In this document: one piece after another, positions 56,646-62,455 of the stretch
Layout of the letters: the number at the start of each line of letters is the position of its first letter
How positions within the stretch are numbered: position 1 is the first letter of the stretch
Source of the DNA: Solirubrobacteraceae bacterium
GTDB taxonomy: Bacteria; Actinomycetota; Thermoleophilia; Solirubrobacterales; Solirubrobacteraceae
Length of the DNA stretch: 64,000 nt
Direction of reading: 5' to 3'
Assembly: GCA_030447505.1 (NCBI GenBank)
Contig: JAUJOT010000007.1
Location: 1 to 64,000 of the forward strand
Notes under the pieces: generated by a model
Seen by the model: only the letters and a program-made list of their open reading frames with translations
What the model was told of the DNA's origin: nothing
Databases searched by the model: none
Position numbers and translations under genes: made by a program

Positions 56646-57089
56646 CTACGTCAGCTCGGCGCGGACACGCAGCAGCGCGAGGACCGCCTCGGCGGCGTGG
56701 GCGCCCTGGTCGCGCCTGCCGCCCCCGCTGCGGGCGATCGCCTGGTCCATGTTCTCCACCGTCAGCAGCCCGAAGCCGCACGGCACGCCCGTGCGCAGCG
56801 CGACGTCCTGGATCCCGCGCGCCGCCTCGTTGCAGACGTGGTCGTAGTGGCTCGTCTCGCCGCGGATGACGGCGCCGAGACACGCGATCCCCGCGTAGCG
56901 CTCGGTCTGCGCGACGATCTGTGCCGCAAGCGGCAGCTCGAAGGCGCCCGGCACCCCGTAGACGTCGACCGCATCGGCCCCTGCCTGTTCGAAGACGCGC
57001 CTCGCGCTGGCGACCAGCCGCTCGGCGAGCTCGCCGTAGAACCGACCGACGACGATCGCGTAGCGAAGCGCGGCGTCCTCAGAAGCCAC
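56646..57089 (-). CDS. ribH: 6,7-dimethyl-8-ribityllumazine synthase
   Basis: RibH makes the riboflavin precursor from the butanone phosphate and the pyrimidine of the rib pathway. The 147-aa protein (GTG 57089) has IVVGRFYGELAERLVASARR, VPGAFELPLAAQ, CLGAVIRGETSHYDHV and FGLLTVENMDQA. It starts one base before the ribBA stop ends (TAGTG). Confidence 0.96.
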   Translation of the reverse strand: MASEDAALRYAIVVGRFYGELAERLVASARRVFEQAGADAVDVYGVPGAFELPLAAQIVAQTERYAGIACLGAVIRGETSHYDHVCNEAARGIQDVALRTGVPCGFGLLTVENMDQAIARSGGGRRDQGAHAAEAVLALLRVRAELT

Positions 57090-58378
57090 TACCGGGCGTC
57101 CTCGCCGTGCGCGTCGCGCTCCTCCTCGTCGTGGAGCATCTCCTTGTCCACGTCGAGGCCCTGGTGGTGCAGCGTATGCCCCATCCGCTCGCGCTTGGCG
57201 CGCAGGTAGTCCTCGTTGTGGGGGTTGGGCAGGTGCTCGATCGGCACCTGCTCGCTGACCGACAGGCCGTAGCCCTCCAGCCCGCGGATCTTCTTCGGGT
57301 TGTTCGTCAGGATCCGGATCGAGCTCAGTCCGAGGTCGACGAGGATCTGCGCCCCGATCCCGTAGTCGCGCAGGTCGGCGGGCAGACCGAGCTGGAGGTT
57401 GGCCTCGACCGTGTCCAGGCCCCCCTCCTGCAACTTGTAGGCGCGCAGCTTGTTGAGCAGGCCGATCCCGCGCCCCTCCTGCGAGAGGTAGAGCAGCACG
57501 CCGTGGCCCTCGCGCTCGATCATCGCAAGCGCGGACTCGAGCTGCTCGCCGCAGTCGCAGCGCAGCGAATGGAAGACGTCGCCGGTCAGGCACTCCGAGT
57601 GCACGCGCACGAGCACGTCCTGCGTGCCCTCGACGTCGCCCTTGACGAGCGCGACGTGATGCTTGCCGCCGACGAGCTCGCGGTATCCGACGGCCTGGAA
57701 GTCGCCGAAGCCGGTCGGCAGCTTCGTCGACACGACGCGCTCGACGAGCTTGTCGTGACGGCGGCGGTAGGCGATCAGGTCTGCGACCGTGATCATCTTC
57801 AGCCCGTGGCGGGCGCAGTAGCCGACGAGGTCGCCGACGCGCGCCATCGTCCCGTCGTCGTTCATGACCTCGCAGATGACGCCGGCCGGGTTGAGCCCCG
57901 CGAGGCGCGCGAGATCGACGGCGGCCTCGGTCTGGCCGATCCGCTCCAGCACGCCGCCGGACCTGCTCTTCAGCGGGAAGATGTGGCCGGGCTGGACGAG
58001 GTCGCGCGGCGAGCTCTCAGGGTCGATCGCGACCTGGATCGTGCGTGCGCGGTCGTGCGCCGAGATGCCGGTGGTGACGCCCTCGCGGGCCTCGATCGAG
58101 ACGGTGAACGGCGTCTCGAAGGGCGACTCGTTCTTCGCGGCCATCAGGTCGAGGCCGAGCTCGTCGCAGCGCTGCGGCGTCAGCGACAGGCAGATCAGGC
58201 CGCGCCCGTGGGTCGCCATGAAGTTCACGGCCTCGGGCGTCGCGAACTGGGCGGCCATCGTCAGGTCGCCCTCGTTCTCGCGATCCTCGTCGTCGCAGAC
58301 GACCACCATCTTGCCGCGGCGGATGTCCTCCAGGGCCTCGTCGATCGTGGCGAACGGGCTGCGCGTGATCTGGCTCAT
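57089..58378 (-). CDS. ribBA: Bifunctional RibBA: DHBP synthase and GTP cyclohydrolase II
   Basis: RibB part (about 1-205) has [19 protein letters not shown] and [17 protein letters not shown]-like segments. RibA part (about 215-420) has [20 protein letters not shown] (zinc cysteines), [20 protein letters not shown] and [14 protein letters not shown]. Together they supply both branches of riboflavin synthesis. The 429-aa length is normal. It is followed by ribH and preceded by a lipoprotein gene. Confidence 0.97.
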
Positions 58379-58476
58379 GGCCTCTAGCTTCGCAAACCAC
58401 GAGGCGCGCCGGGGTTCTGCGGCGCCGCCCGCAGACGCTCACGCGTCCTCCGCCTCGATCGGTCAGCTCGACGGCG

Positions 58477-58701
58477 TCATCTGCCGTCGACGTCCTCGAC
58501 GCCCTCTTCGATCTCGTCTCCGGCGTCCTCGACCGCGTCCCCAGCCTTCTCGTCGACGTTTCCGGCGCCCTTGTCGAGCTCCTGCCGGGCGTCCCTGGTG
58601 TCGCGTTCGATCGCGTCGTCGGTGCCGCAGGCCGGCAGCGCGGCGAGCGCGGCGAAGGCGGCCACGAGGCTCAGGCGTGAGCGCAGGGCGGGCATCGGCA
58701 C
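58477..58701 (-). CDS. Small lipoprotein with acidic heptad repeats
   Basis: The 74-aa protein has a signal peptide (RLSLVAAFAALAALPACG) with the lipobox LPAC, so the Cys should be lipid-modified. The mature part is a short acidic amphipathic helix with repeated DAxDEIEE-like spacing (TRDARQELDKGAGNVDEKAG). It is unusual inside a riboflavin operon. A role in flavin uptake or envelope stress would be guesswork. Confidence 0.75.
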   Translation of the reverse strand: MPMPALRSRLSLVAAFAALAALPACGTDDAIERDTRDARQELDKGAGNVDEKAGDAVEDAGDEIEEGVEDVDGR

Positions 58702-58731
58702 AGGAGTACCCAGGCCGCGCCGCTGCGACGC

Positions 58732-59319
58732 TCAGCGCGCCAGCAGCTTCTCGACGTACTTCGCGACGACGTCGACCTCGAGGTTCATCTGCGCCCCCGC
58801 CGCCGCGCCGCCGAGCGTCGTGCGCTCGAGCGTCTCCGGAATCAGCGAGACGTCGAAGCTCTCGTCGTCGATCCGCGCGACGGTCAGCGACACGCCGTCG
58901 ACGGCGATCGAGCCCTTCTCGACGACGTAGCGCAGCAGCGCGGCGTGCTCGGCGCGGATCGTGAGCACGCGGGCGAAGCCGTCCTCGAGCGCCTTCGCGA
59001 CAGTGCCGACGCCGTCGACGTGGCCCTGCACGATGTGGCCGCCGAGGCGATCGGCGGCGCGCAGCGCGAGCTCGAGGTTGACCTGCGTTCCCGCCTCGAT
59101 CGCCCCGATCGTGCTGCGAGCGAGCGTCTCGTGCATGACGTCGGTGGCGAAGCTGTCGCCGGCGACGGCGGTCGCGGTCAGGCAGACGCCGTTGACCGCC
59201 ACCGAGTCGCCCTCGGCGACGTCGCCGGCCAGGCGCGTGCGCAGCGTCAGCCGCAGGCCGTCAGCGGTCGCGTCGACCGCCGCGACGGTGCCGAGGTCGG
59301 CGACGAGCCCCGTGAACAG
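58732..59319 (-). CDS. ribE: Riboflavin synthase alpha subunit with an apparent CTG start
   Basis: RibE turns two lumazines into riboflavin and the pyrimidine. The 195-aa protein has the two lumazine-protein repeats: DSVAVNGVCLTATAVAG, ADRLGGHIVQGHVDGVG, KGSIAVDGVSLTVARI. The conserved start MFTGIV corresponds to CTG TTC ACG GGG CTC GTC. The first ordinary in-frame start, GTG 59202, lies 39 codons later and would delete the first strands. CTG 59319 has GGAG about 10 nt upstream and lies 4 nt after the ribD stop. Confidence 0.92.
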   Translation of the reverse strand: MFTGLVADLGTVAAVDATADGLRLTLRTRLAGDVAEGDSVAVNGVCLTATAVAGDSFATDVMHETLARSTIGAIEAGTQVNLELALRAADRLGGHIVQGHVDGVGTVAKALEDGFARVLTIRAEHAALLRYVVEKGSIAVDGVSLTVARIDDESFDVSLIPETLERTTLGGAAAGAQMNLEVDVVAKYVEKLLAR

Positions 59320-59323
59320 GAGG

Positions 59324-60445
59324 TCACCACTCCCGCAGGCGCGCCGAGATCAGCAGGTCGTCGGCGACGCGCTCGCAGTCGAGCGTCAGCGCGCGCAGCG
59401 CCTCGGAGATCCGCTCGACGCCCTCGCCCTCCAGCGGGTCGCGGGCGGCGCGGCCGCCGAGCAGCAGCGGCGCGAGGAAGAGCCGCACCTCGTCGATCTC
59501 GCCGGCGTCGAGGAAGGCGCCGGCCAGGTGCGGGCCGCCCTCGAGCAGGATCGAGGTGATGCCCCGCGCGCCGAGCTGGTCGAGCGCCGAGCGCACGCGC
59601 GCGGGCTCGTTCTCGCCGGTCGCGACGACGACCTCGGCGCCCGCCATCTCCAGCGCCTCGACGGCCGAGCGGCGCGCGGCACGCGAGACGACGACGGTCA
59701 GCGCCGACTGCGGTGCCGCCGCGACGAGCTTGGAGTCCAGCGGCAGCCGCGCGGTGGCGTCGAAGACGACGCGGCGGGGCTGGTGATGGACGCCGTCGAG
59801 GCGCGCCGTCAGCTGCGGGTCGTCGGCCAGCGCGGTGCCGATCCCGACGACGACGGCGTCGACGCTCGCCCGCCAGCGGTGCGCGCGGGCGCGGCTGGAC
59901 TCGTCGGAGATCCACTGCGAGTCGCCGGTACGCGTGGCGACCTTGCCGTCGAGCGTCATCGCCGACTTGAAGGCGATCCAGGGCCGGCCGCTGCGGGCGT
60001 GCTTGCGAAAGGCCTGGTTCACGAGCCGCGCGCGGGCGGCGAGCTCCCCGTCGGCGACGTCGACCTCGATGCCCTCGTCGCGCAGGATGCCGAGGCCGCG
60101 GCCGCAGGCCTTGGCGCTAGGGTCGTCGGAGGCGACGACGACGCGGGCGATGCCGGCGGCGATCAGCGCATCGGTGCACGGCGGGGTCTTGCCGTGATGG
60201 CAGCACGGCTCCATCGAGACGTAGAGCGTCGCGCCCGTCAGGTCCGCGCCGCCGGCGTCGGCGATCGCGTTGACCTCGGCGTGCGGGCCGCCGCACTCGT
60301 CGTGCCAGCCCTCCGCCAGCACCTTCTCGTCGCGGACGATCAGCGCGCCGACCATCGGGTTGGGGTGCACCCGGCCGAGCCCGAACTCGGCAAGCTCGAT
60401 CGAGCGCGCCAGGTGGTCGTGGTCGGCCGCGGTCAGTGTCGCCAT
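59324..60445 (-). CDS. ribD: Bifunctional RibD: pyrimidine deaminase and reductase
   Basis: The N-terminal CDA-type deaminase has GGPHAEVNAI and MEPCCHHGKTPPCTD (zinc His/Cys). The C-terminal reductase has the NADPH site WIAFKSAMTLDGKVATRTGD. The 373-aa length is standard. It heads the ribD-ribE-lipoprotein-ribBA-ribH run. No FMN-riboswitch consensus is visible in its 5' leader. Confidence 0.96.
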   Translation of the reverse strand: MATLTAADHDHLARSIELAEFGLGRVHPNPMVGALIVRDEKVLAEGWHDECGGPHAEVNAIADAGGADLTGATLYVSMEPCCHHGKTPPCTDALIAAGIARVVVASDDPSAKACGRGLGILRDEGIEVDVADGELAARARLVNQAFRKHARSGRPWIAFKSAMTLDGKVATRTGDSQWISDESSRARAHRWRASVDAVVVGIGTALADDPQLTARLDGVHHQPRRVVFDATARLPLDSKLVAAAPQSALTVVVSRAARRSAVEALEMAGAEVVVATGENEPARVRSALDQLGARGITSILLEGGPHLAGAFLDAGEIDEVRLFLAPLLLGGRAARDPLEGEGVERISEALRALTLDCERVADDLLISARLREW

Positions 60446-60463
60446 CAGTGGTTGTCCCCGTGA

Positions 60464-60593
60464 GTACGCGTGCTGTCCAGGCGATTGCTGGCGCCGACCG
60501 GCGAGGACGCAGGGAGGAAGGTGTGCCTCTGGCAGATCGACGACCGAGGACGCCGCGAGGCGGTGATCAGCGATTGCCTGGCAGTGTGCGTAC
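60464..60593 (+). ncRNA. Candidate structured RNA: 130-nt element closed by a 26-bp stem
   Basis: Strand 60464-60490 pairs with 60568-60593. The only break is a bulged T at 60476. Of 26 pairs, 21 are Watson-Crick and five are G-U as read on the plus strand (60470/60587, 60471/60586, 60472/60585, 60483/60575, 60486/60572). All five would be A-C mismatches on the minus strand. The enclosed ~77 nt contain further small stems: CGCC-GACC-GGCG, AGG/CCT inside CAG/CTG, and CGCC-GCGA-GGCG with a GNRA-type loop. It lies between two minus-strand genes, upstream of ribD. No known class is recognised. The class, promoter and ends are unproven. Confidence 0.45.
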
Positions 60594-60631
60594 GTGCGGG
60601 GGCGACCACTAGGCCAGCATAGGGCCGGACG

Positions 60632-62455
60632 TCAACCCGAAGCGGTCAGCCCCTCGGCGCAGCGGCCGCCCTGCAGCCGGTAGATCGTCATGACCGGCCC
60701 CGGCCTGCTGTACGCCAGCGGGTAGTAGTTGAACGTCCAGTCGAAGTTGAAGCCGACGGGTCCCTTGCCCTTCGCGTACGGCGACACCGCGTAGGCGACC
60801 TTCGAGCGCCGTTCGAGCTCCTCGTAGTAGCGCAGCGCGTTGGGCACCTGGTCGGGCTCGGCCTCGGCGCGGCCGCGCTGCGTCGACCCGACGACGACGT
60901 AGCAGTACGCCTGCTGCTCGAAGACGTCGACGAGCTCCGGGTGCAGCACCTTCTCGAAGTCCTCGATGTTCACGACGCCGGCCGCGCCGGGCACCGGCCC
61001 GCCGGTCTTCGGATCGATCTTGCGGCTGAGCGGATACTTGTTCCAGCGGTTGCCGTTGGAGGTGACCGCGGACGGGTTGCCGATGTCCTGCGCCCACTGG
61101 TCGGGCACGACCGGCTCGACGACGACCTTCGTCGTCTCGGGAACGTTCAGCACCATCCACTCGCGGGCGATGTTGCGCGTGTCCTCGCGCGACATCACGA
61201 GGCCCGAGTGCAGCGAGTAGACGAAGCCCTGCCCGCACAGCGCCACGACGGCGGCGGCGACGAACGTCGGGCGCAGCCCGGGCGAGACGTTGCCCAGCCA
61301 GTCGGCCAGCTCGATCGCCGCGTAGGCGGCCAGGACGCAGACGAACGGAAAGACCGGCATCAGCCAGCGCCCGAAGTAGCGCTCCTGCGAGCCCATGAAC
61401 AGGACGAACACGACGATCGGCGCGGCGAGCATCCAGAGCAGCCTGCGCTCGTCGAAGAACAGCCGCACGGCGCCGCCGACCGCGAAGAACAGCGGCACCC
61501 AGCCCAGCCCCCAGCCGAACGACCAGAGGTAGTACGCGTAGCCCGAGTCCTGCGTGAGCCCGAGCTTTCCGGCGGCGTCGCCCGATGCGGTCGACTGGTG
61601 CGTCAGCCCGTTCCAGAACGACGAGAAGTCGAGCATCGAGTACGGGTTGGCGATGACGAACGTCAGTAGCGAGAGCGCGGCGAGGATCCCGATCCCGCGC
61701 AGCGCGCCGGCCCTGCCGCCGCTGGCCGCGAACTGCGCGCCGGCGGCGCCCAGGATCGGCAGCAGCACGATGCCGCCCGTGTACTTCGTCGCGGACGCCA
61801 GGCCGAGACCGATCGCGGCCCAGGCGTAGTCGCGCAGGCGCCCGTTGCGCAGGATCCCGGCGGCGCCCCACAGGCCGAGGCACACCCCGGCGAGCGTCGG
61901 CACGTCGTTGAGCGCGAGCTTGGAGTAGAAGACCGGCAGGAAGGCGACCGCGAAGATCCCGGCCGACAGCAGCCCGACGCGGCGGTCCAGCAGCCGCGAG
62001 CCGGCGAGGTACAGCAGCCAGACCGCGAGCGTCCCGCACAGCGCCGCGATCGTGCGGGAGATGATCCAGATCTGCGTCGGATCGGCGGCAAAGGAGTTCG
62101 AGACCCCCGCGCGGCCGCCGTGCCAGACGCCGAGCGCGAGGTGCACGAGGTACGTGTACGCGGGCGGGTTGACGTAGTAGTTCGGGTCCCAGTCGTGGCC
62201 GAACATCCCGATCGCCCGCGTCACGAAGTGCGCGTTCTCGTCCGCGTTGTAGGCGTACGGCAGCCCGTGGCCGACGCCCCAGACGCGCAGCCCGAACGCG
62301 AGCAGCAGGACGGCGCCGATCGCCGAGCCCCAGATCAGCTTGTCGTCGCTCGGGCGGCGAAGGCTCAGTCCGGGCGCGGTGAGAAACGCCGTCAGGCCGC
62401 TCTGCTCCGGCGCCGGCGCCTGCGCGTCGCGAAACTGGCTCTCAACAGCTGACAT
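60632..62455 (-). CDS. GT39-like membrane glycosyltransferase
   Basis: The 607-aa polytopic protein has about ten to twelve helices. The first outside loop carries the NADENAHFVT acidic pair typical of GT39/PMT-type lipid-linked mannosyl- or arabinosyltransferases. A periplasmic C-terminal domain follows (about 430-607). The first gene of the pair (62442) overlaps it by 14 nt. Substrate unknown. Confidence 0.85.
   Translation of the reverse strand: MSAVESQFRDAQAPAPEQSGLTAFLTAPGLSLRRPSDDKLIWGSAIGAVLLLAFGLRVWGVGHGLPYAYNADENAHFVTRAIGMFGHDWDPNYYVNPPAYTYLVHLALGVWHGGRAGVSNSFAADPTQIWIISRTIAALCGTLAVWLLYLAGSRLLDRRVGLLSAGIFAVAFLPVFYSKLALNDVPTLAGVCLGLWGAAGILRNGRLRDYAWAAIGLGLASATKYTGGIVLLPILGAAGAQFAASGGRAGALRGIGILAALSLLTFVIANPYSMLDFSSFWNGLTHQSTASGDAAGKLGLTQDSGYAYYLWSFGWGLGWVPLFFAVGGAVRLFFDERRLLWMLAAPIVVFVLFMGSQERYFGRWLMPVFPFVCVLAAYAAIELADWLGNVSPGLRPTFVAAAVVALCGQGFVYSLHSGLVMSREDTRNIAREWMVLNVPETTKVVVEPVVPDQWAQDIGNPSAVTSNGNRWNKYPLSRKIDPKTGGPVPGAAGVVNIEDFEKVLHPELVDVFEQQAYCYVVVGSTQRGRAEAEPDQVPNALRYYEELERRSKVAYAVSPYAKGKGPVGFNFDWTFNYYPLAYSRPGPVMTIYRLQGGRCAEGLTASG

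Follow-up and report, generated by a model that had tools for sequence, protein, structure and literature searches.

What kind of element is the long hairpin that lies beside the start codon of ribD in a 64,000-nt stretch of Solirubrobacteraceae bacterium DNA (GenBank assembly GCA_030447505.1, contig JAUJOT010000007.1, positions 1 to 64,000; hereafter the window), and what keeps it foldable? A first-pass annotation described a candidate structured RNA at this position and named a miniature inverted-repeat transposable element (MITE) as the main alternative. The two readings are compatible: the hairpin is a mobile element, and its core is RNA-like. We consider it likely that it is a non-autonomous MITE-like element, about 164 bp long, with a functional plus-strand hairpin, and that a helper encoded elsewhere moves it in trans.

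The window copy and its fold

The arms first noticed at 60464-60490 and 60568-60593 are confirmed, including the single bulged T, and their pairing extends beyond these limits, out to AGTGG (60447) and CCACT (60610), so that the unit at this locus measures 164 bp (60447-60610). The predicted plus-strand RNA has a minimum free energy of -76.1 kcal/mol (z -6.9, 0 of 200 shuffles equally stable); the corresponding values for the minus-strand RNA are -53.5 kcal/mol and z -2.6. When wobbles were scored in a strand-neutral manner, treating G.T and A.C alike, both arms together contained 11 G.T and 0 A.C pairs, a stronger one-sided signal than the five of five imperfect pairs reported by the first-pass annotation. 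The copy matches a covariance model of the family, built from 78 dereplicated copies, with 72.5 bits (E 1e-15). Its parts are as follows:

60447..60610, plus strand: whole element, 164 bp, between ribD and a membrane glycosyltransferase gene, with the core strand antisense to both; its borders are the ends of the empty site in six sister genomes and carry the inverted repeat AGTGG..CCACT.
60447..60502, plus strand: left arm or terminal inverted repeat, with the type (a) end AGTGGTTGTCCCC; pairs with 60554-60610 (11 G.T, 0 A.C); the length from GTG to core is 54-55 nt in 35/35 type (a) copies.
60503..60516, plus strand: conserved 5' core GAGGACGCAGGGAG; invariant columns in the 78 dereplicated copies, and a covariance-model match.
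60517..60540, plus strand: variable apical hairpin; covarying pairs family-wide, median apical z -3.2.
60541..60553, plus strand: conserved 3' core CGACCGAGGACGC; invariant columns, with positions facing the 5' core that co-change in a second subfamily.
60554..60610, plus strand: right arm or terminal inverted repeat, terminus GGGGGCGACCACT; supported by the inverted repeat, the pairing with the left arm and the arm lengths.

Family-wide, the core consists of RAGGACGCAGGGAG, the variable hairpin and then CGACCGAGGACGC, and is nearly invariant among the 78 copies. We infer that it forms a single helix interrupted by facing GA/GA loops that adopt tandem sheared G.A pairs. The three smaller stems originally proposed for the loop, one with a GCGA tetraloop, are replaced by this model: covariation backs a single continuous helix with G.A-type internal loops and a single variable apical hairpin, and GCGA is not conserved. 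Changes on both sides occur in 17 of 20 proposed pairs, and two core pairs do not vary at all. The covariation score is 0.423, compared with 0.137 when partners are shuffled and no more than 0.112 when they are slid. In the second subfamily, whose core reads AAGGCCGCAG / CGAGAACG, two facing non-canonical positions have changed together (GGAC/GGAC to GGCC/GAAC), as expected of a non-canonical pair.

The arms vary in sequence yet stay paired, and their lengths are constant: among 35 independent type (a) copies the left arm spans 54-55 nt from GTG to core and the right arm mostly 56-58 nt. Between lineages the arm sequences are wholly different, with ends that include AGTGGTYNYTCC, GCAGGCTGTTGAAG, GAGCTCGTTTC, GGAGGGCTTGGCG and TTAAGGGCCTGTCCAG. 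A small open reading frame was ruled out, as core lengths vary without codon periodicity and the pairs covary.

Strand polarity of the wobble pairs

Because inverted repeats in DNA could covary too, strand polarity is the key test. The arms of 92 elements hold 583 G.T pairs against 97 A.C pairs on the core strand, and 88 of the 89 untied elements are G.T-rich where base composition predicts a share of 0.61 (p 3e-46). Dereplication at 75% identity leaves 209 G.T and 37 A.C pairs, with elements divided 33 to 0, and the plus strand gives the stabler fold in 154 of 163 copies. The earlier proposal that selection acts on a plus-strand fold is supported by this bias across the family.

The bias is alike in copies that lie antisense to both neighbours (-,-; 271:28) and in those that lie sense (+,+; 112:23), which points to selection on the element itself, rather than to neighbouring genes, as what maintains the fold. 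Mutation bias linked to transcription or replication was ruled out as the cause of the wobbles, given this similarity and the random orientation of copies between the replication arms of FR_37, a complete 4.6-Mb genome (71+/79-, permutation p 0.66). The one-sided wobbles suggest that selection acts on how one strand folds, in the simplest case as RNA. At the level of sequence, folding specific to one strand can be regarded as demonstrated; from it we infer the RNA role, to which single-stranded DNA is the alternative.

A mobile, high-copy family

The homologue search in Thermoleophilia proposed by the first-pass annotation recovered a large family distributed among soil actinobacteria. A 150-base query found four significant places in the organism's own genome, including the window copy, and up to at least 14 matches per genome in relatives. 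The exact core pattern occurs in at least 119 stretches of public species genomes, nearly all of them, among the matches listed, in Thermoleophilia or Solirubrobacterales assemblies. By the covariance model, 160 of 299 Thermoleophilia genomes, from 78 of 114 genera, carry the family, often in at least 13 copies each and in FR_37 in at least 150; among related genomes the copy number ranges from none detected to at least 150. The divergent branch that forms the second subfamily occurs outside the class, in other families of the phylum (loci L283-L301, families f13 and f49). Searches for carriage on plasmids or phages gave no match apart from one IMG/VR contig (IMGVR_UViG_3300026300_000009, locus L282), which is classed as viral and may be host DNA.

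In the covariance search against Rfam, the window copy had no match at gathering score, and seven related loci searched at E up to 5 returned only chance models, in keeping with the initial view of a structured RNA outside known families that is not a flavin mononucleotide (FMN) riboswitch, signal recognition particle RNA or 6S RNA. The open papers searched contained no description of the repeat family, only general MITE reviews surfacing, and none described the combination of conserved core, exchangeable ends and one-sided wobble. To the extent of this literature and Rfam, no earlier description of the family was found.

Evidence for mobility comes from empty sites. In 6/6 other genomes of the genus ribD and the membrane-protein gene are adjacent, and in 0/6 is the element between them; the gain corresponds to 60447-60610. 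A special tie to ribD is not supported, as this site is empty in all six and copies adjoin many unrelated genes; a ribD-specific regulator is thereby ruled out. In a ribosomal-protein operon, genome G005 carries copies at two junctions (L015, L036) and G002 at one of them (L037), where sister genomes have only CTGATG, CTAGATG, CTAGTG or similar. All three copies are antisense to the operon, and their ends provide a stop codon and a Shine-Dalgarno sequence. Mobility is thus demonstrated by sequence comparison.

Other arrangements accompany these insertions. Some FR_37 elements are nested within another's core, between GGC-AA and GGACGCAG. At loci L049, L056, L094, L104, L123, L137 and L158, elements with GAGCTCG-type ends are inserted at this one core position (GGC-AA / GGACGCAG) and form arrays, and some of the composites seem to have spread as units. 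FR_37 copies less than 250 bp apart share a common orientation. Core-less hairpins, in which the arms are joined after loss of the core, occur in the organism's own genus (L230, L235, L236) and in FR_37 (L247, L248). Half elements also occur.

The MITE-like alternative is borne out by a small, non-coding unit (164 bp, arms 54-58 nt, core length indifferent to codons) with terminal inverted repeats, dispersed in many copies and with empty orthologous sites. Most type (a) copies have TA or CA/TG borders, set within CTAG or TGATG, and flanks are TA/TA in 13/35 and CA/TA in 8/35 (together 21/35), so that duplication is inconsistent. The TA-type borders point to a DDE enzyme of the TA-duplicating kind as a candidate helper.

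Insertions are concentrated at gene ends, with codon distances that are approximate because genes were called with a simple codon-usage finder. Among the element ends facing a stop codon, 61/100 fall between -10 and +5 nt of that codon; for ends facing a start codon, 18/83 fall in the same interval of the start. A Shine-Dalgarno sequence at the usual spacing is present in type (a) ends, which read GGAGGAACCACTGATG, and the opposite side provides TAG; upon insertion at CT^GATG the element restores the stop codon and the ATG is kept. Between co-directional neighbours the core strand is antisense in 63 cases and sense in 36 (p 0.009), and in the tightest such contexts antisense in 31 and sense in 18 (p 0.085). 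The window copy has no U run that would mark an intrinsic terminator, the sequence past the stem being ..GACCACTAGG.

Two genes flank the window copy:

59324..60445, minus strand: ribD (Pfam RibD_C and deaminase).
60632..62455, minus strand: PMT-like membrane glycosyltransferase on the other side of the element (Pfam PMT_2); synteny with ribD is maintained in sister genomes.

The ribD start codon is one base from the element, and the sequence directly 5' of its ATG (CACGGGGACAACCACTG) is element-derived. Next to the window copy, no gene for a nuclease or a recombinase could be recognised. Window positions 56646-60445 comprise a riboflavin gene cluster (ribD, riboflavin synthase, ribBA and a probable ribH), and no Rfam FMN riboswitch was matched in the window. 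Close to the boundary of ribH and ribBA, a weak covariance-model match at 57049-57127 (minus strand, 22.2 bits, E 0.003) may be due to chance or to a decayed copy.

How the element may act and move

By sequence, the family is made up of dispersed elements that are absent from orthologous sites in relatives. Terminal inverted repeats bound each element, next to which TA or TG within CTAG / TGATG is usually found, and most insertions are at stop or start codons. The strand reading AAGGACGCAG is kept foldable as one long hairpin of fixed length with a conserved stack of G.A-type internal loops at its centre. We hypothesize that this core strand acts as an RNA product of the element, with a protein most likely binding it at the core, and that its fold is maintained by selection on the element itself rather than by neighbouring genes. 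A helper acting in trans, perhaps a TA-targeting DDE transposase, would move the element, and the ends, by restoring both a stop codon and a Shine-Dalgarno sequence, may let copies occupy operons with little damage.

Several observations weigh against this proposal. No insertion sequence with matching ends was found in FR_37 or the genus, where the unpaired end sequences examined proved to be full, half, core-less or nested elements and DDE families were not surveyed. Besides the inconsistent target duplication (TA/TA in 13/35), one empty site (CTGATG) fits insertion without any duplication. The second subfamily has a weaker wobble bias (about 62 G.T to 42 A.C, rows summed), and many recent copies are related, so that the counts are not fully independent. 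Finally, one-sided wobbles would also be expected if a single-stranded DNA hairpin of the core strand were the selected form.

A bolder version, less probable than not and put forward tentatively, holds that the folded plus-strand RNA is itself part of mobility, with the tandem-G.A core recognised by a protein or by RNA alone and movement occurring at the open foot of the fixed-length hairpin. Because movement would take place at this foot, core and arm length would be fixed while the ends remained free to change. In carrying a putative structured RNA, the element resembles those associated with IS110 bridge RNA and the IscB/TnpB guide RNAs (HEARO, RAGATH-18), from which it differs in having no Rfam match beyond chance models even at E up to 5 and no recognisable nuclease or recombinase gene at the window locus. 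The IS110 recombinase (DEDD, PF01548) is absent from carriers G005, G049, G053, G078, G221, G248 and G264, which does not fit a bridge-RNA system. Reverse transcriptase (PF00078) is absent from G000, G005, G053, G078, G221, G248, G264 and other carriers, contrary to what a retroelement moved by such an enzyme would require. If this version were true, the family would represent a class of mobile element dependent on RNA structure, with no need for a Y1 transposase, an IS110 recombinase or a reverse transcriptase.

It is unlikely that the family is an ordinary MITE of the TA type that a DDE transposase moves in double-stranded form, in which the core would serve as a DNA-binding site and gene conversion between the arms would preserve their pairing. 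Known bacterial MITEs do offer a match for its size, its terminal inverted repeats, its TA/CTAG borders and its predicted hairpin transcripts (PMC2229807; PMC10969869). Correia/NEMIS, ERIC and RUP elements are 100-200 bp long, have terminal inverted repeats and TA termini, are present in many intergenic copies and are predicted to give transcripts that fold as single long hairpins, and NEMIS RNA has been proposed as an RNase III substrate (PMC2229807). The Thermoleophilia repeat shares this overall architecture (PMC2229807; PMC10969869). However, its ends diverge fully between lineages while its core is nearly invariant and shared beyond one class, and, in a comparison of described architectures only and not of sequence or wobble bias, it is set apart by its fixed arm length and wobbles confined to one strand. 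A DDE enzyme should conserve the ends and not the core, the opposite of what is found, and movement as double-stranded DNA offers no reason for a 6:1 excess of G.T over A.C on one fixed strand and leaves the co-change of facing non-canonical core positions unexplained.

A hairpin of the REPIN/IS200-like kind, in which the strand is selected to fold as single-stranded DNA and is recognised by an HUH transposase, appears quite unlikely. DNA hairpins tolerate G.T pairs, so the polarity would be explained, and a hairpin with internal mismatches, high copy number and inconsistent target duplication are features that such elements would share. Nevertheless, Y1_Tnp (PF01797) is absent from seven carriers (G000, G003, G005, G006, G011, G020, G025), at odds with a REPIN/RAYT system. 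IS200-type movement is expected to give a lagging-strand bias, and the orientation of FR_37 copies shows no bias between replication arms. REPINs are extragenic, high-copy and non-autonomous, with a hairpin as the replicative unit and tandem copies (PMC3116915); the present repeat is likewise a high-copy non-autonomous hairpin, but many of its carriers lack a Y1/RAYT protein, and it is about 164 nt long, built around one central core where REPINs have two terminal REPs.

A host regulatory or structural non-coding RNA, serving for example in mRNA processing or attenuation, that was multiplied across the genome and retained for the host's benefit is highly improbable. A core deeply conserved across the class and beyond and the location of copies at gene ends would fit such an RNA, but copy number among related genomes falls to none detected, orthologous sites are empty and, relative to flanking genes, antisense copies outnumber sense copies.

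The repeat appears to rank among the most abundant non-coding families in Thermoleophilia, although Rfam has no entry for it. Which strand of a mobile hairpin functions when single can be read, from DNA alone, in its wobble pairs. The family also offers testable cases of an element whose centre stays constant while its ends are exchanged, and of a parasite that enters essential operons safely with its own stop codon and ribosome-binding site.
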